NCBI GenBank assembly: GCA_022574595.1
Contig: JACZRS010000004.1
Coordinates: 62,001-126,000, forward strand
Direction of reading: 5' to 3'
DNA length: 64,000 bases
Source of the DNA: Planctomycetota bacterium
GTDB taxonomy: Bacteria > Planctomycetota > Phycisphaerae > Phycisphaerales > SM1A02
Made by a program: the position numbers and the translations under genes. Under the pieces are notes generated by a model. The model did no database searches. It was not told the origin of the DNA and was given only the letters and a program-made list of their open reading frames with translations. The first letter of the stretch is position 1; the number at the start of each line of letters is the position of its first letter. Of the stretch, positions 6,434 to 38,821 are shown one piece after another.

Positions 6434-7636
6434 TTATGAACGGTGTTGGTTGTGGAGATCGCGCATTACTTTTATGTATGCTTCGGTTGGCTCGCGGTCA
6501 CGGCGTTTCATCATGGCCTTGGCGGTACTCAGGAATTTTTCGAACCTAAATGTTTGTTCACCACGATCGGTTAACCAGGCAAAGCGGCCTACAGCTCCCG
6601 GCGGCGCTGCTGTGGTGGCGATCATTGAGCCTGTACCGATTACTGTGCCGGTCATAATCCTGGTATTTATCGAAAACTTCACATGATCGCCAACAAACGC
6701 GCCTAGGAATGTTAACCCGGTCTTATGCACTGGTCCTTCCGGCGAAAGGCGCATGGCAACTTCGCTATAAGTATTAAGCAAATTCGAGTTGGTTGTGCCG
6801 GCGCCGAAATTCACCCATTTACCTATCCACGAATCGCCCAGGAAACCGAGATGGGCTTTGTTGGAATATCCCTGGAAGATTGTCCCCCCCACTTCCCCTC
6901 CAACTTTACACATAGGCCCTATTACCGTATTTGGCTTTATCAGCGCGCCATCAGTAATTGTGCTGCCTCGTCCAATAGAGCATGGCCCGCAGATTACAGC
7001 ATTTGGTCGAATCACCGCTTGTTCGTGAATTGCTACTGGGCCAAGCTCGGCATCAAGCACGACGTTGGGTTTTATATCAGCATCACGATGCACTTCAACG
7101 GGGTGTTGGCCGATGATTGTTGTTTTGCCCGTTGGAACGACCGCATCTAACATTCTCACCATAGATAGGTCATAGGAAATTGTCTCATTAAGTACTGATA
7201 GGACATCCCAGGGATATTTATATAGCAGCCGTTTATCAAGCTCTTGAATCGAAACTCTTTCGTGCAGTTGATTAGTTTCAAGAAAATACTCAGCATCAGC
7301 TCGGCGTAGCATTGCTGCAACGATGTGCCCGGTAGCTTTTTCGATTGCTGCTTGACCTACTTCGAGTTTAAGCTGTGGATCAGGCATTGCCCATCGACCG
7401 TTGACGCAGTAAACAACTTCTTCTTTAGGTAAATGGTTAACCGGTGCATTTGCGCGCTCAGCGACCATCTCCTGCAATTTCTCAGGAACCCAATAACCCG
7501 CAAGTGTTTTAGGTTTATGCGCATCGATTCTGCCTGCGGTGGTTAACACCCCGGTTCGCACTTCAAAGGAAGCGCGCAAGTCGGTCATAGGAGCGAGTTG
7601 GCCCAGGCCATCGTCAAAGATGATCATGCGCGGCAT
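6434..7636 (-). CDS. Alternative GlmU-type UDP-GlcNAc pyrophosphorylase / acetyltransferase
   Basis: 400 residues. The N terminus MIIFDDGLGQLAPMTDLRAS followed by EVRTGVLT matches the start of the alternative GlmU family known from Bacteroidetes and relatives (I recall it as TIGR03991), which lacks the usual LAAGxGTRM loop. From about residue 195 onwards hexapeptide repeats (for example VAIHEQAVIRPNAVICGPCSIG) build a left-handed beta-helix, the acetyltransferase part. The family is expected to make UDP-GlcNAc from glucosamine-1-phosphate for peptidoglycan and glycolipids. It is the last gene after mreB-mreC-mreD, with a 61-base gap to mreD. A different sugar-phosphate nucleotidyltransferase role cannot be excluded. 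Confidence 0.8.
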   Translation of the reverse strand: MPRMIIFDDGLGQLAPMTDLRASFEVRTGVLTTAGRIDAHKPKTLAGYWVPEKLQEMVAERANAPVNHLPKEEVVYCVNGRWAMPDPQLKLEVGQAAIEKATGHIVAAMLRRADAEYFLETNQLHERVSIQELDKRLLYKYPWDVLSVLNETISYDLSMVRMLDAVVPTGKTTIIGQHPVEVHRDADIKPNVVLDAELGPVAIHEQAVIRPNAVICGPCSIGRGSTITDGALIKPNTVIGPMCKVGGEVGGTIFQGYSNKAHLGFLGDSWIGKWVNFGAGTTNSNLLNTYSEVAMRLSPEGPVHKTGLTFLGAFVGDHVKFSINTRIMTGTVIGTGSMIATTAAPPGAVGRFAWLTDRGEQTFRFEKFLSTAKAMMKRRDREPTEAYIKVMRDLHNQHRS

Positions 7637-7697
7637 ATGTTGGCCTTACTTACTAGATCAACAACATCAAACAAAGTTGCAGCGGATTCTACCCCAT

Positions 7698-8273
7698 CTA
7701 GCGCCAGGCCACGCCCCTACCTCGTATAAGGTTTGTTTGGAACTGCCACAGCGGTAATGAACGAGCTAGCACCCACCCAATTGGTACGCCCATTATGCCT
7801 GAATAGATCGCAGAAAAAAAGCGTCTCATAATTTCGTTGAAAGTCGATGTTTCCGCCCAATAAAGTGGGCCTTCAGGATACCACGACCTGACGATATACA
7901 GGGTGACGGTTATGACCATAGCTGAAAAGGCAAATAGCAAAGTCATGGCTCCGATGGTTAGCGCTCTTCTGCGAAAGACGGTTGAGCGCATTTGCAGGAC
8001 AATATAGCAAGCAAAGACATACCCAAGTGTGTGCGGACCGATCAGGTGTAATGTTCGTGCGATTCCAACTGATAAGTCTGTGGAAAGATCAAGTAGTAAA
8101 CCGAGAATCAGGCAAGCCCATAAAGCTGTGATCCTTGGCGCTGAAAGTGCGATAAATGTTGCTAGTATTGCGCACACACTGGGTTTTATATGAAGTATGT
8201 GCACGGTATCAACCAGGCCTACTTCAAAGACCATTGCTATGAGAGCGCATATTGCAAAGAACGCCCAACTCAT
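7698..8273 (-). CDS. mreD: Rod-shape-determining protein MreD
   Basis: 191 residues, almost entirely hydrophobic with five to six predicted membrane helices (for example ITALWACLILGLLLDLSTDL and ALTIGAMTLLFAFSAMVITV). The segment LGLLLDLSTDLSVG is typical of MreD. Its ATG overlaps the mreC stop by four bases (ATGA), indicating coupled translation. MreD sequences are weakly conserved, so the call rests on topology, that motif and position directly behind mreC. It is an inner-membrane part of the elongasome. Confidence 0.85.
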   Translation of the reverse strand: MSWAFFAICALIAMVFEVGLVDTVHILHIKPSVCAILATFIALSAPRITALWACLILGLLLDLSTDLSVGIARTLHLIGPHTLGYVFACYIVLQMRSTVFRRRALTIGAMTLLFAFSAMVITVTLYIVRSWYPEGPLYWAETSTFNEIMRRFFSAIYSGIMGVPIGWVLARSLPLWQFQTNLIRGRGVAWR

Positions 8274-27033: not shown

Positions 27034-28209
27034 TTAAACTAATTTGCTAATTGAGCCGTTTTGGCGAAGAGGCCGTGCCGAATTCGTACAAGTTAATCTT
27101 GCGCATATGGCGTTTAGTCTTCTAATCTGCCCCAGCGCATTATCAAGAGATTTGCAAACATCCATAGTTTTCAGCACATCGCGCGCTGCTGTAGTAGCAG
27201 CACCAAATCCATAGCCTGCTGCTGAACCCTGAATTGCTAGACACAATTCACGAACTGCGCATTGGTCCTCAGCTTCGGCTGCTCTTTCTAATTTGCGCGT
27301 CAGCCGCCTGGCTTGCTCAATAAAATCCATAATCATCTCAGTCATGCCCGGATCATCTTCAAGCGAGCTATAAATTGGATCCTCAATAGTAGTTTGCTCC
27401 AGCCACTCTGCAATAACAGTAATAAGAGCTTCCGGGCTGTATGGTTTTCCTATGATTTCGTTAGCTCCAGCTGAACGAGCATCAAGAAGGTGCTTTAAGT
27501 CATTATCCGCTGTTATCACAATAATGGGACACGTCACTCCGAATGAGCGCATTTGTTTTATCATGCGGGATGACTCTTGCTCTTTTAGATTTATGTCACA
27601 CAAGATAATCCCAAAATCATTTTTACGGACTGCATCGAGAGCAGCACCTGGAGTTGCAGTAGCAGTAATTGCTACACCCGTGGCTTTTAGGTGATGAGCA
27701 AGAAGACGCCTATCTGTTGTTGAGCCATCAACAAGTAAGACAGAACCCCCAAGCGAAGGTAGATCTCTACCTGAAAGGGATCCGCCTGCTTCTTCTATTT
27801 GCTCCTCAGAGAGGATTTCATAAGGATTTATTTCTTCAAGGAAGCGAAGCCCAATCTCATGATGATGGGAACCAATATGCCGACAATGCATGACCACTGC
27901 AGAGAGAGCCATGGGCGAACCATCAGCACGTGCCAGCAGCAATCTACATTCAGTACCTGGGTGCAAATACCCCCCGTGGATTATGGATAATCCACTTACG
28001 GAAATATTGCGCGTGCAAACTAGGAACCTGCCGCTACCCCCTCCGGGGTGCTGAACCATCATTGCAATTTCGCCAGCTCGATATTCACAGCGTTTGTGGC
28101 GACGGCGCTCAGCCCCTTTAATACCTGTTGGGCTTTGATCCAGTCTGCAAAGAAGCTTGCTTTGCTCAGCACTATTTAAATGCAAATGATTGGTGAATTC
28201 CTCGCTCAC
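27034..28209 (-). CDS. PilZ - response regulator receiver - HPt-like protein
   Basis: 391 residues in three parts. A PilZ domain (about 35-130) has RRRHKRCEYRAGE and TRNISVSGLSIIHGG. A receiver domain (about 155-270) has the phospho-acceptor Asp205 in IILCDINL, Thr233 in VITAD and Lys255 in GKPYSPE; the usual acidic pair at its start is reduced to Asp161-Gly162. A helical C terminus (about 285-375) carries LAIQGSAAGYGFGAA, which resembles the HPt motif HxLKGSAxxxG but has Leu324 where the phosphorylated histidine should be. The protein probably joins c-di-GMP binding to phosphorylation. It lies upstream of a second PilZ gene on the same strand. Confidence 0.85.
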   Translation of the reverse strand: MSEEFTNHLHLNSAEQSKLLCRLDQSPTGIKGAERRRHKRCEYRAGEIAMMVQHPGGGSGRFLVCTRNISVSGLSIIHGGYLHPGTECRLLLARADGSPMALSAVVMHCRHIGSHHHEIGLRFLEEINPYEILSEEQIEEAGGSLSGRDLPSLGGSVLLVDGSTTDRRLLAHHLKATGVAITATATPGAALDAVRKNDFGIILCDINLKEQESSRMIKQMRSFGVTCPIIVITADNDLKHLLDARSAGANEIIGKPYSPEALITVIAEWLEQTTIEDPIYSSLEDDPGMTEMIMDFIEQARRLTRKLERAAEAEDQCAVRELCLAIQGSAAGYGFGAATTAARDVLKTMDVCKSLDNALGQIRRLNAICARLTCTNSARPLRQNGSISKLV

Positions 28210-30755: not shown

Positions 30756-31784
30756 ATGAAAAAGAACATTAACAGTGGTCGTGCGTTCACCATCGTTGAG
30801 CTATTGGTGGTCATAAGCATCATCGCAATATTACTTGCGTTACTCGCTCCTGCTCTTGGTGGCGTAATTCGAAGAAGCAAGAAATTCACTGAAACCAATG
30901 CCCTTAGAAACGTAGGCCAAGCGTGGATTCTTTATGCCAATTCCAATGCTGAATATGTACTTCCTGGTTACCTCGAACCGGAAATGCAAGGTACAAATCC
31001 AGGCGGTTGGGATGTGCAATATGAATATCCCTACGTTCCAGATCCAACTAATCCCAATAATCCACCAAACGTCATAATTGATCCAGACATTGCTGCTACA
31101 TGGACATGGCGCTTAATGCCTTACCTGAGCTATAACCACGACATGATCCATGATCATACTGATGAGCCAGATAGATCCAGCATGAACATTCTTGAAGAAG
31201 CTGAGGCAATAGCGTTAGAACCAGGATTTGGCTACAACGCATTCTACGTTGGTGGTTGGTGGAAAGAGTACGATGTTGTTGGCCAAGATCAAAAAATTGT
31301 TCGCTATAGATTTTGGCAGGCAGCTGCTGACCTAGATGGTGATGACAATATCGATGATGATGAAAGAGCCAAGGTTGTTGTTCGCTCAATTGGACAATGC
31401 CGCCGCTCTACTGAAGTTGTTGTATTTTGCTCATCATCTAAGGTAGAACCTGGTGTCTACAAGAAGTGGGAAGACGATCAACCCGGCTCGCATTATGTTG
31501 TGCCTCCTTACCTGGCGCAAGAGCAACATTGGGGACGAGCAGGCGGCGGATCTGGCGGCATTGGTGGTAGTGGCGGTGGCGATACTACATTTAGCGCTGC
31601 CGCGGGCGACTTCTGGACGGTCGAAGCGTTCTTGCAAACATCGGTTCCAATCGGACGCTATACAAAATCATCTAACTTGCTTTACTTTGATGGCCACACT
31701 GCCAATCAAGCAGTGGGCGTTTTACTTGATATGCGCAACTGGATTGATATAGCGACAACTCGTGATTTTCGCCATAATGAGTAG
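30756..31784 (+). CDS. Prepilin-type pseudopilin-like protein
   Basis: 342 residues from the ATG at 30756, with GGAG six bases upstream; a TTG four codons earlier is unlikely. The N terminus GRAFTIVELLVVISIIAILL is a class III prepilin leader: cleavage after Gly/Ala with the conserved Glu5 of the mature form. The long exported part (WILYANSNAEYVLPGYL, acidic linkers, a Gly/Ser-rich stretch near residues 255-280 and a final LLYFDGHTANQ) is typical of the many large pseudopilin-like proteins of Planctomycetes. It would be processed by a prepilin peptidase encoded elsewhere. Its role in secretion or surface structure is unproven. Confidence 0.85.
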   Translation: MKKNINSGRAFTIVELLVVISIIAILLALLAPALGGVIRRSKKFTETNALRNVGQAWILYANSNAEYVLPGYLEPEMQGTNPGGWDVQYEYPYVPDPTNPNNPPNVIIDPDIAATWTWRLMPYLSYNHDMIHDHTDEPDRSSMNILEEAEAIALEPGFGYNAFYVGGWWKEYDVVGQDQKIVRYRFWQAAADLDGDDNIDDDERAKVVVRSIGQCRRSTEVVVFCSSSKVEPGVYKKWEDDQPGSHYVVPPYLAQEQHWGRAGGGSGGIGGSGGGDTTFSAAAGDFWTVEAFLQTSVPIGRYTKSSNLLYFDGHTANQAVGVLLDMRNWIDIATTRDFRHNE

Positions 31785-31814: not shown

Positions 31815-33149
31815 CTATTTATCATCACCAGTAGACGACTGGCCGAACTGTCTTTTTAGCTGCTGCTTAAATGAGCGCCGCATAATCCGAACCTGACTTG
31901 GTGGCAGAACTGACTTTGATAGATCAACCTGGATAGCGGTTATCCATTCCTGGGAAACAGCCTTGTACCCTAGCTGTGAATAAAGTCTTTCTTGCATATC
32001 CAGCATGTGGGCTGCACCATAAAAAACCGCAATTGATTTAACCTCGGGCTCACTTTCGCGCATTTTAAGAAGCTCATCAATAACAACTTGATTGCGCTGC
32101 CTTACTATTACTTCCTCAAATCCTTGACCAAGCTGCTTTAAACCCTGCTCAATAACAGTTTCATCCGCAAACAGATCTATAAGCACGATCTTGATCATGT
32201 CAGAAATCGCACCGTCCGCCCAATCATCAAGCCATTGTATTATCTTTAGCGCAGCGCCTGCAAGTTTCCCCTGCCAGGATGTGCCTGCTAGTGCGCCTTC
32301 TAATAGAGCAAAGTCTGAACCTTCTTCTTTTAATGCACGTTCAAGCTGATCGATGGTCATATCCGAGCATCGCCAATTCTCTTGCCCGTAATCTATAGAT
32401 ACCAGTTGATATTCCAGACCTAATGCTTTTGCCAGACTCTCTTGCAAATTGACCTCTTCGCCTTGCATTTCATCAGCTTCTGGCAACGAGGTTTGATCAA
32501 GTTTGATATCAGCATCTGATCCTTCGCCGCCTTCTTTGCCATCTGCCCCCAAACTCACGAGTGAGAATGTCTGTTGATCTTCAGGGCTTGTATAGGTCAA
32601 TGTTTTACCCCAGGCATCAATTGCTGCCTTTGCCAGCCAATCTTCCAAACGAGGATCTTTGCTTCGAGCAAATTTAAGAAGCTCCGCTTTACTAGTAGGG
32701 TAGCGCCCATTGACAGTATGGTGCCTTGCAATAGCTTCAGCTACAAATTGCATGGCTTTTTCTGTGCTAGCGTGGCGGAGCTTGTCATCACTTCCCTTTG
32801 GGCCATCTCCGCCTGTTGGCATTACAGATTCGTAAAGCACAACTTCGTGCTTGTTTAACAACTCCTGCAAGCTTGTGTACAGTTCAGCTTCACCAATATG
32901 CGATACACCAACCAGCGAAATCTTTGGGCCAACGCCGTCTATTGGTTCAAATGTTCTTGCTGCAACTTCAAGAGTGATCAATCCCCCGGATTCTTCTACT
33001 ACGCGCAGGTAGCCATCTGACAGATCATCTGACTTGGGAGTTTGTGGCTGAGTTTCCTGAGCTGTAGCAGTGGCAATAGATAAGCCCGCAGCAACTAAGC
33101 CAAGCCCTAAGCATGTTCTATTAGTTCTTGTGATCCTGCGTCTTAGCAT
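31815..33149 (-). CDS. TraB/GumN-family protein with an inserted GspG-like pseudopilin domain
   Basis: 444 residues with an N-terminal export signal (LGLGLVAAGLSIATATA). A TraB/GumN-like domain opens with KISLVGVSHIGEAELY (77-91) and VVLYES (~103-108). It is interrupted at about 128-216 by a stretch with the plan of the GspG (type II major pseudopilin) globular domain: HHTVNGRYPTSKAELLKFA, IDAWGKTLTYTSPEDQQ and the calcium-loop motif SLGADGKEGGEGSDADI. The TraB/GumN part then resumes (LGLEYQLVSIDY, RQRNQVVIDEL, and a late GxxH-type motif AVFYGAAHMLDM at 374-385). The hydrophobic pilin helix of GspG is absent. It follows an ExbB gene by 58 bases. Protease-like function is conjectural; the TraB/GumN call is by motif only. 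Confidence 0.75.
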   Translation of the reverse strand: MLRRRITRTNRTCLGLGLVAAGLSIATATAQETQPQTPKSDDLSDGYLRVVEESGGLITLEVAARTFEPIDGVGPKISLVGVSHIGEAELYTSLQELLNKHEVVLYESVMPTGGDGPKGSDDKLRHASTEKAMQFVAEAIARHHTVNGRYPTSKAELLKFARSKDPRLEDWLAKAAIDAWGKTLTYTSPEDQQTFSLVSLGADGKEGGEGSDADIKLDQTSLPEADEMQGEEVNLQESLAKALGLEYQLVSIDYGQENWRCSDMTIDQLERALKEEGSDFALLEGALAGTSWQGKLAGAALKIIQWLDDWADGAISDMIKIVLIDLFADETVIEQGLKQLGQGFEEVIVRQRNQVVIDELLKMRESEPEVKSIAVFYGAAHMLDMQERLYSQLGYKAVSQEWITAIQVDLSKSVLPPSQVRIMRRSFKQQLKRQFGQSSTGDDK

Positions 33150-33207
33150 TTTTCACTCCCTTGATTTGTTCTAGCGCTGCATGCGCTTATTGCTACTTGG
33201 AACTTCG

Positions 33208-33909
33208 TCATACTGAAGCACGCTCAGCAGCAAGGATTTTGTTAATTGGAGTCTTTGGCTCCGCAGCAGGGCTACTTCCACTTACAGTAGCAGCTAAACC
33301 TTGTTGGGCAGCCGCAATCAATGATTCCATCCGCCCTAGTGATCGCTCAACATGGGATTTGAAAATCATGTATGGAAATAGCGTTAGTAGGGCAATAACG
33401 AGGCCCATTGCCGTTGTCAGTAATGCTTCTGCAATTCCTATTGAAACCATTTGGGGGTCGGTTAGCGTTTGTTGGCCGCCTAACAGATTAAACGACTTAA
33501 TGATCCCGATGACAGTACCGAGAATCCCAAGTAGTGGAGCTGCGGTGATTATCGTAGATAAAGATGTCATAAATCTGTCTATGCGCGGCCTCTGGCTCTC
33601 TACTGCCTCAATGGCCACAGCTTCGGTTGCTCCATGTTCAATAAGCTGCCTGCTCACATGATCGTAAACTGATCGATTATCTGGTACCAGTTTTTTTACT
33701 GTATTGAGGTTCCCAATTCGAAATGCCTTATTTAGCCTTGCCAGGTGCTTTACTTTACTAGCTCTATGCAGCGAAACCCAAAACCAGATTCGCTCTACTA
33801 TGAGACAGAGACTCGTTACGCTCATGATTAGAAGGGGTATCATCACGATACCCCCCTTTTCGATCAGCATCGGCAAGTCTGTTTCTAGTCCTAACATCAT
33901 TAAAATCAT
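33208..33909 (-). CDS. MotA/TolQ/ExbB-type proton channel protein
   Basis: 233 residues with three membrane helices: IPLLIMSVTSLCLIVERIWFW, AAPLLGILGTVIGIIKSFNLL and AEALLTTAMGLVIALLTLFPYM. The last two with the linking LTDPQMVSIGIAEAL are the ExbB/TolQ signature; the large cytoplasmic loop lies between helices 1 and 2. Such proteins pair with ExbD/TolR to couple proton flow to periplasmic work, but no ExbD/TolR gene lies next to it. The next gene on the strand is the TraB-GspG chimera. Starts at codons 4 or 5 are possible alternatives. Confidence 0.88.
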   Translation of the reverse strand: MILMMLGLETDLPMLIEKGGIVMIPLLIMSVTSLCLIVERIWFWVSLHRASKVKHLARLNKAFRIGNLNTVKKLVPDNRSVYDHVSRQLIEHGATEAVAIEAVESQRPRIDRFMTSLSTIITAAPLLGILGTVIGIIKSFNLLGGQQTLTDPQMVSIGIAEALLTTAMGLVIALLTLFPYMIFKSHVERSLGRMESLIAAAQQGLAATVSGSSPAAEPKTPINKILAAERASV

Positions 33910-37276: not shown

Positions 37277-38821
37277 ATGTTATTGAGATTGAAATCCGTT
37301 AAACAACTTGCTACGATCACGGTCCTCGTCTTCACGGCAACTGCGAACGCAACCATTTACAATGTCCCCGGCGACTATGCAACAATCCAGGAAGCCATTG
37401 CCGCAGTCAAGGACGGCGACGAAATCGTCGTCGCACCCGGCACTTACAACGAAGCGATCGACTTCCTAGGAAAACCAATCACGATAATCAGTTCCGGCGG
37501 TGCAGAAGTAACCACCATCGATGGAACCGGATTGAACACAAGCGTAGTTTCGTGCATCAATCTTGAAGGCGCAGATACTGTGCTGGAAGGATTCACAATA
37601 ACCGGCGGCAATGCGCTCGACGGCGGCGGAATGTACAACCAGTTCAGCGATCCGACAGTGACCAGTTGCAGGTTCATTCAGAATGCCGCAATCTCCTGGG
37701 GTGGCGGAATGTACAACAGCTTCAGCGATCCGACGTTGTCTGACTGTGTTTTTTCTTCGAATAGTGCTGTACAAGGGGGTGGCATGGTGGTCTCAAATGA
37801 AAGCAACCCGACGATTTCCGATTGTACATTCAGCGGAAACACTGCCAGCGAATTTGGTGGCGGAATACGGTTTACAAAAGGATCCTACATAGTGACCAAT
37901 TGCACTTTTGTCGAAAACATTGCCGAAGGCTTTCTTGGTGGCGGAGCCATTTGGGTTTTTGCCAACCAAGAGATTGATTTGACGGTGATCGATTCAAGCT
38001 TCATCGGGAATTCGGCCCCGTCTGGAAGGGGAGGGGCAATCCGAGCATCAACGTTGACCGCGTCCGGCTGTTCATTCATTGATAATAGTGCAGGTCTGTT
38101 AGGCGGTGCTTTGTATCTTAATGGAGATATTTTTGGGGCACCTGCGGGATCCTTTTGCTTATCCAATTGCTTGTTGGCCCAGAACGATGCCCTTTTCGGG
38201 GGCGGTATTTTTCATGAGTCCGAATTATCAATCCTCTCAGTAGCAAATTGCACTGTCACTAATAATACCGCAGGCATCGGAGGGGGAATCCTTACTGATG
38301 ATTTGACAGTTCTATTCCTCGATAATTCGATATTATGGGATAACCAGCCGGAACAATTACTTAACGACGATATATCAGTGGTTATGGTGAGCTATTCGAA
38401 CATACAGGGAGGTTGGCCCGGTCTGGGCAACATAAATGCTAATCCACTCTTTGTTGATCCGGACAACGATGACTACCGACTCGCAGCCACATCACCATGT
38501 ATCGATGCTGCTAACAACAACGCAGTACCTAAGGGTATTGAAACAGACCTCGGCGGCGATCCCCGCTTCGTTGATGATCCGGATACGCCAGACACAGGTG
38601 TAGGAACTCCGCCTCTCGTTGACATGGGCGCGTATGAATTCCAACTTGTGGCTTGCCCGTGGGATCTTGATGGCGACGGCTCGGTCGGCATAAGCGATCT
38701 ACTTCATTTATTTGGCAATTGGGGTTCTAATCCTGGCAACCCTGCTGATTTTGATAAGGATGGCTTCGTTAACACTAATGATCTGCTCATCCTCTTCGCA
38801 AACTGGGGACCGTGTCCCTAA
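37277..38821 (+). CDS. Secreted right-handed beta-helix protein with C-terminal dockerin-type module
   Basis: 514 residues; AGGAGG lies seven bases before the ATG. A signal peptide (LATITVLVFTATANA) precedes a pectate-lyase-like helix opening NVPGDYATIQEAIAAVKDGD. There are at least seven coils carrying the polymorphic-membrane-protein pattern, for example GGGMYN...SDPTVTSCRF and NCTFVENIAEG. A segment ending VDMGAYEFQ closes the helix (a pattern I recall as the choice-of-anchor Q region). The C terminus carries two calcium-loop repeats, DLDGDGSVGISDLLHLFGNWG and DKDGFVNTNDLLILFANWG. Such proteins are exported and surface-associated; a carbohydrate ligand is possible but catalytic residues are not evident. 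Confidence 0.85.
   Translation: MLLRLKSVKQLATITVLVFTATANATIYNVPGDYATIQEAIAAVKDGDEIVVAPGTYNEAIDFLGKPITIISSGGAEVTTIDGTGLNTSVVSCINLEGADTVLEGFTITGGNALDGGGMYNQFSDPTVTSCRFIQNAAISWGGGMYNSFSDPTLSDCVFSSNSAVQGGGMVVSNESNPTISDCTFSGNTASEFGGGIRFTKGSYIVTNCTFVENIAEGFLGGGAIWVFANQEIDLTVIDSSFIGNSAPSGRGGAIRASTLTASGCSFIDNSAGLLGGALYLNGDIFGAPAGSFCLSNCLLAQNDALFGGGIFHESELSILSVANCTVTNNTAGIGGGILTDDLTVLFLDNSILWDNQPEQLLNDDISVVMVSYSNIQGGWPGLGNINANPLFVDPDNDDYRLAATSPCIDAANNNAVPKGIETDLGGDPRFVDDPDTPDTGVGTPPLVDMGAYEFQLVACPWDLDGDGSVGISDLLHLFGNWGSNPGNPADFDKDGFVNTNDLLILFANWGPCP

Follow-up and report, generated by a model that had tools for sequence, protein, structure and literature searches.

A GspG-type pseudopilin domain inserted into a probably exported protein with a predicted TIKI-superfamily hydrolase core in Phycisphaerales-type planctomycetes

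Within the window, by which we mean the whole stretch of 64,000 nucleotides that was analysed, an ATG-initiated open reading frame (31815-33149, minus strand) specifies a protein of 444 residues that combines a signal peptide, a predicted TIKI-superfamily hydrolase and an inserted GspG domain. The Sec-type signal peptide (residues 1-30; 33060..33149, minus strand), with its cleavage site placed by eye, possesses a basic start, a hydrophobic core and ATA before Q31, and pLDDT is below 50 in this part of the AlphaFold2 model. Among the 97 fusions left after near-copies were removed, 91% carry a 10-residue hydrophobic stretch within the first ~55 residues, and we infer that Sec exports the protein to the periplasm or cell envelope, where it would act. 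The hydrolase core comes in two parts, all on the minus strand: residues 45-110 (32820..33017), which hold H84 of a GxxH motif (32898-32900) and E107 of an LYE motif (32829-32831), and residues 235-412 (31914..32447), which hold R352 (32094-32096) and H381 of a YGAAH motif (32007-32009). Between them lies the GspG (T2SSG) domain (residues 120-221; 32487..32792, minus strand), which matches PF08334 and structure 3gn9, has no hydrophobic pilin helix, and includes a GspG/PERCAL-type calcium loop, SLGADGKEGGEGSDADI (residues 199-215; 32505..32555, minus strand), that keeps D203 and D214.

Both flanking genes are as a sequence-only reading of this DNA had described them. An ExbB/TolQ-type frame of 233 residues (33208-33909, minus strand) lies 58 bases upstream of the fusion on the same strand, and a prepilin-like frame with an N-methylation motif (30744 or 30756 to 31784, plus strand; PF07963, E 1.1e-4) is convergent with it. 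Elsewhere in the window, we noted by eye a 391-residue protein (27034-28209, minus strand) that seems to combine PilZ-like, response-regulator receiver and Hpt-like domains, as well as an apparently exported protein of 514 residues (37277-38821, plus strand) whose repeats resemble a right-handed beta-helix and whose end, DLDGDGSVGISDLLHLFGNWG, resembles a dockerin.

GspG builds the type II secretion pseudopilus and depends on calcium. The sequence-only reading had placed the plan of its globular domain at residues ~128-216, and profile and structure comparisons agree: Pfam T2SSG (PF08334) matches residues 123-216 at E 3.4e-13, and among PDB sequences GspG/EpsG chains come closest (E 8e-9 to 9e-8). 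In an AlphaFold2 model built on 61 sequences (mean pLDDT 89, pTM 0.86), residues 120-221 superpose on GspG 3gn9 with Z 10.2 and 2.4 A over 92 residues, with further matches to the GspG structures 4lw9, 3fu1, 1t92 and 2kep; Foldseek alone, at E 0.001 or better, matched a single GspG chain. The protein scores 46.7 bits against the NCBIfam GspG equivalog TIGR01710, which has a cut-off of 88.85, and a Pfam scan found no prepilin motif (PF07963) in it, so that the fusion contains a GspG domain but is not itself a pseudopilin. Aligned with 24 free GspG proteins from the same genomes, the fused copies have gaps in the hydrophobic pilin-helix columns that the free proteins fill; the helix is thus missing, as had been claimed, and the protein should be unable to assemble as a normal pseudopilin.

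The claimed aspartate/glycine calcium loop is also present across the fusions, with D214 invariant in 97/97 and D203 retained in 93/97; the GspG landmarks D178 and W180 are likewise invariant in 97/97. In the study that describes the PERCAL motif and its calcium ligands (PMC3396595), two aspartates of pseudopilin 3G20 bind Ca2+ through their side chains, and it is with these that D203 and D214 align. In PulG, calcium is needed for folding, assembly and stability (PMC6692295). The GspG module of the fusion would be expected to bind calcium as well, although calcium is perhaps dispensable in some fusions because a few have a degenerate loop; one homologue (L069) carries the shortened version SAGSDGRFDTEDD. 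Beyond the missing first ~20 hydrophobic positions, the fused copies lack the GPYL stretch common in free GspG and conserve D122, R/K125 and T129, which are conserved only in fused copies (T129 in 94/97 fused versus 5/24 free) and sit at the start of the GspG-domain helix next to the hydrolase. The positions aligned to E44 and D48 of PulG, which make filament contacts (PMC6692295), are A137 and A141 in the fusion, and free GspG proteins vary there too. With the helix lost, conserved residues gained on the hydrolase side and alanines at the PulG contact positions, these differences point weakly to a role within the protein itself rather than to docking on a filament.

The source genome apparently reuses the GspG module at another locus, where two tandem proteins on contig C10 (L185:6441-7403 and 7497-8198), just upstream of a dnaK-like gene, combine hydrophobic N-terminal membrane segments with a C-terminal GspG-like calcium-loop module (TDPWG...SSGSDGEFDTDDD; the PF08334 match covers profile positions 64-101 only). 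Two nearly identical GspG genes with differing upstream residues also occur on short contigs of this genome (C6:387-689 and C11:3718-4020), representing either a recent duplication or assembly redundancy.

Turning to the flanks, which the sequence-only reading had assigned to TraB/GumN, a Pfam scan found no match to PF01963 (TraB_PrgY_gumN) at E<=1 in the window protein itself. Its homologues, scanned singly, support the assignment: 43 of 48 full-length fusions match PF01963 (46 of 48 match T2SSG), and of 15 insertless homologues 12 match it too, with a best E of 7e-10. In structural comparison, residues ~53-408 of the model match a chain labelled as Tetrahymena complex IV (7w5z_E, Z 8.4), ChaN 2g5g (Z 7.3) and the erythromycin-esterase-type proteins 6xcq (EreC) and 2qgm (Z 5.0 each). 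ChaN, Bcr135 and the Ere family are members or relatives of the TIKI superfamily, which conserves a set of two His and two Glu with a basic residue (PMC6254334). Only the fold comparison brought out these relatives: searching PDB with a profile of the insertless family gave no TIKI relative by sequence, and with Foldseek alone no TIKI family reached E 0.001. The moderate Z values gain weight because members of one superfamily keep recurring among the matches and because the relatives match PF01963, and on the model the core is a TraB/PrgY/GumN (TIKI-superfamily) hydrolase fold.

Within this core, H84, E107, R352 and H381 are invariant in all 97 non-redundant fusions and all 20 insertless homologues, as are Y377 and G378, at an overall identity of ~30% across the 117 sequences. 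By motif, the first four of these form the predicted catalytic set (in TraB/TIKI proteins the His of GxxH, a Glu, an Arg and the second His), and their conservation suggests hydrolase activity. In the model, H84, E107 and H381 come after the ends of core strands 76-82, 103-106 and 372-378, respectively, and the insert sets in at residue ~111, about four residues past E107; because of this arrangement, the insert would emerge at the rim of the active site, a placement that comes from chain topology rather than from distances.

The same fusion is widespread in this group. Among 397 genomes of the class, we found 47 further full-length homologues, which belong to the same family and order and show identities of 28-47%. 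A genome scan with the single protein did not recover relatives. A pattern scan of GTDB genomes, using a close 7-sequence alignment (the 48-sequence alignment was too diverse), returned ~60 fusion loci, some sharing a genome, labelled Phycisphaerales, Phycisphaeraceae, Phycisphaerae, Planctomycetota and a few other planctomycete names. The 97 non-redundant fusions come from many independent assemblies, and since they keep the GspG landmarks and the catalytic residues, the fusion is no misassembly. Insertless homologues of ~300-340 residues, whose alignment skips the query between residues ~118 and ~233, were found in a second family of the class (15 aligned), a Verrucomicrobia genome (L172), a Fimbriimonas genome (L176) and other planctomycetes. 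Their existence indicates that the hydrolase core forms a separate family in which the GspG domain is an insertion, one that, judged from these sequences, is dispensable to the core. Parsimony on the hydrolase-core tree gives three changes of insert state, and a single origin of the insert is compatible with this tree given that insertless rows L172 and L176 are weakly placed. We found no published description of a GspG-TraB/GumN architecture in the open-access literature, outside which most subscription journals lie; both halves are known families.

We evaluated the upstream ExbB-like gene for its neighbourhood and its partners. Its frame matches the MotA/TolQ/ExbB channel domain (PF01618, E 1.8e-26) and scores well under the equivalog cut-offs (72.4 bits versus 221 for TolQ; 53.9 versus 206.2 for ExbB). 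Conservation of its adjacency to the fusion turned out to depend on the family: ExbB lies directly upstream on the same strand in nearly all f1 members that have the fusion, and in f5, whereas in f2, f3 and f4 the ExbB orthologue is elsewhere and the fusion stands without ExbB beside it. Five of 23 loci show 4-base ATGA/GTGA overlaps between the two genes, which therefore form an operon in those loci, and in the source family the two probably share one; since only two of five families have ExbB ahead of the fusion, the partnership is not obligatory. In those f2 genomes that were inspected, ExbB sits beside the same polyprenyl synthetase gene as here and the fusion is often beside ispG, so that both arrangements could go back to one breakpoint separating ExbB from the fusion. 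The prepilin-like gene is often a conserved neighbour of the fusion in f1.

The sequence-only reading had also remarked on an ExbB without ExbD, which holds at the locus, where no ExbD adjoins ExbB, but fails genome-wide. Six ExbD-type matches occur elsewhere in the source genome, one of them without ExbB beside it (contig C17, G000:C17:216377-216787, equivalent to L180:9375-9788) and followed by a weakly TonB-like gene. 'TonB-like' is tentative here because a Pfam scan of that neighbour gave no match and NCBIfam tonB_Cterm scored 18.1 bits, below its cut-off of 27.1. The C17 ExbD lies downstream of STAS and gyrA-like genes, an order of gyrA, STAS and ExbD that is also seen in several relatives. 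Across 48 fusion genomes, 39 possess both ExbB and the C17-type ExbD, 7 neither, 2 ExbB only and none ExbD only (Fisher p 5e-7 at thresholds of 100 and 60 bits, a value that ignores shared ancestry). Because this unlinked ExbD co-occurs with ExbB, the lone ExbB most likely represents one half of a split gene pair with its ExbD encoded elsewhere, and we rejected an ExbB without any ExbD. Six genomes keep the fusion without this ExbB or this ExbD (G314, G294, G341, G377, G386 and G119).

Bringing these observations together, the best-supported reading, to which we give about an even chance of being right, is of a Sec-exported TIKI-type hydrolase in which a calcium-stabilised GspG module serves as a lid or exosite at the mouth of the active site. 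The enzyme would act in the periplasm or cell envelope with the GspG module fixed at the active-site rim and rigidified by Ca2+, where, as lid or exosite, it may select or admit a peptide or ester substrate. The whole-chain pTM of the model suggests a defined arrangement of the two domains, and the fusion-specific D122, R/K125 and T129, being next to the hydrolase, support the lid. ExbB would belong to a split ExbB and ExbD-TonB-like system, as a frequent operon neighbour that the enzyme does not require.

The main rival makes the GspG domain a docking adaptor to the major pseudopilin or another part of the type II secretion or type IV pilus machinery that brings the hydrolase to secretion sites or pilin-type substrates. 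We consider this unlikely, though the intact GspG fold and calcium loop would suit it, as would the convergent prepilin-like gene conserved beside the fusion in f1. All 48 fusion genomes have PF08334 matches, nearly all of them with at least one such match in a short open frame besides the fusion, but GspG is near-universal in this group, so its co-occurrence says little about docking and does not discriminate between a lid and an adaptor. As for the residues themselves, GPYL is lost in the fused copies, the positions of PulG E44 and D48 are alanines (with the caveat that free GspG vary there), and what has become conserved lies towards the hydrolase, which counts weakly against the pseudopilus docking or mimicry that the sequence-only reading had proposed. 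Less probable again is a tether to pseudopili or the type II machinery, which would make the fusion a filament-bound protease or esterase processing passing substrates or pilins; we know of no precedent for a pseudopilin domain as a targeting tag.

A similarly low probability attaches to a catalytically inactive core that would bind a ligand, for instance haem in the manner of ChaN, and in which the GspG domain would be a structural insert with a passive part. The haem-binding protein ChaN shares the fold and ranks among the better structure hits, and inactive TIKI-fold proteins exist (PMC6254334), but four predicted catalytic residues invariant in 117 sequences at ~30% identity are hard to account for without chemistry. 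It is quite improbable that the fusion is the periplasmic partner of ExbB, with proton-motive force passed to the hydrolase or the GspG domain. The same-strand adjacency in f1 and f5 and the 4-base overlaps would fit such a channel partnership, which the sequence-only reading had also raised, but f2, f3 and f4 separate the genes, the six genomes named above do without both ExbB and its ExbD, and ExbB keeps company with the unlinked ExbD instead. Misassembly or chance resemblance, for which we found nothing in favour, has next to no probability given the number and independence of the fusions and was rejected.

What matters here is that a part of a secretion filament has been reused as an enzyme module: a calcium-dependent GspG domain was captured beside a predicted active site of TIKI type, and a large group of Phycisphaerales-type planctomycetes has kept it there. 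To our knowledge, little is known of the function of bacterial TraB/GumN proteins, and a separable, possibly calcium-dependent lid would offer a handle on what they cleave and how access is controlled. The ExbB whose ExbD is probably encoded elsewhere, in turn, cautions that an ExbB gene standing alone need not lack a partner.

Compared with known systems, the insert shares with GspG (PF08334, TIGR01710; EpsG, XcpT, PulG) the globular fold, the DxWG motif, the calcium loop and both side-chain aspartates, but it lacks the pilin helix and prepilin peptidase site, scores far under the equivalog cut-off and is embedded in an exported enzyme. Relative to TraB/PrgY/GumN proteins and the TIKI superfamily (TIKI, EreA/B/C, ChaN, RRSP), the modelled core has the same fold, with matches of ChaN, EreC and BcR135 type, and shares the GxxH, Glu, Arg and second His, and most of its relatives match the Pfam model; what sets the fusion apart is a GspG domain directly after the strand of the predicted catalytic glutamate, which homologues from other lineages lack. 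The upstream gene resembles ExbB/TolQ systems with ExbD/TolR in its channel-family match and in a co-occurring, unlinked ExbD beside a weakly TonB-like gene, but here the genes are split and ExbB appears to share an operon with the fusion in some families. A further parallel is offered by the PERCAL insertions of bacterial animal-type peroxidases (PMC3396595), where a GspG-type calcium loop occurs in an unrelated exported enzyme; there an 11-residue motif is inserted, whereas the fusion carries a whole GspG globular domain of ~100 residues.
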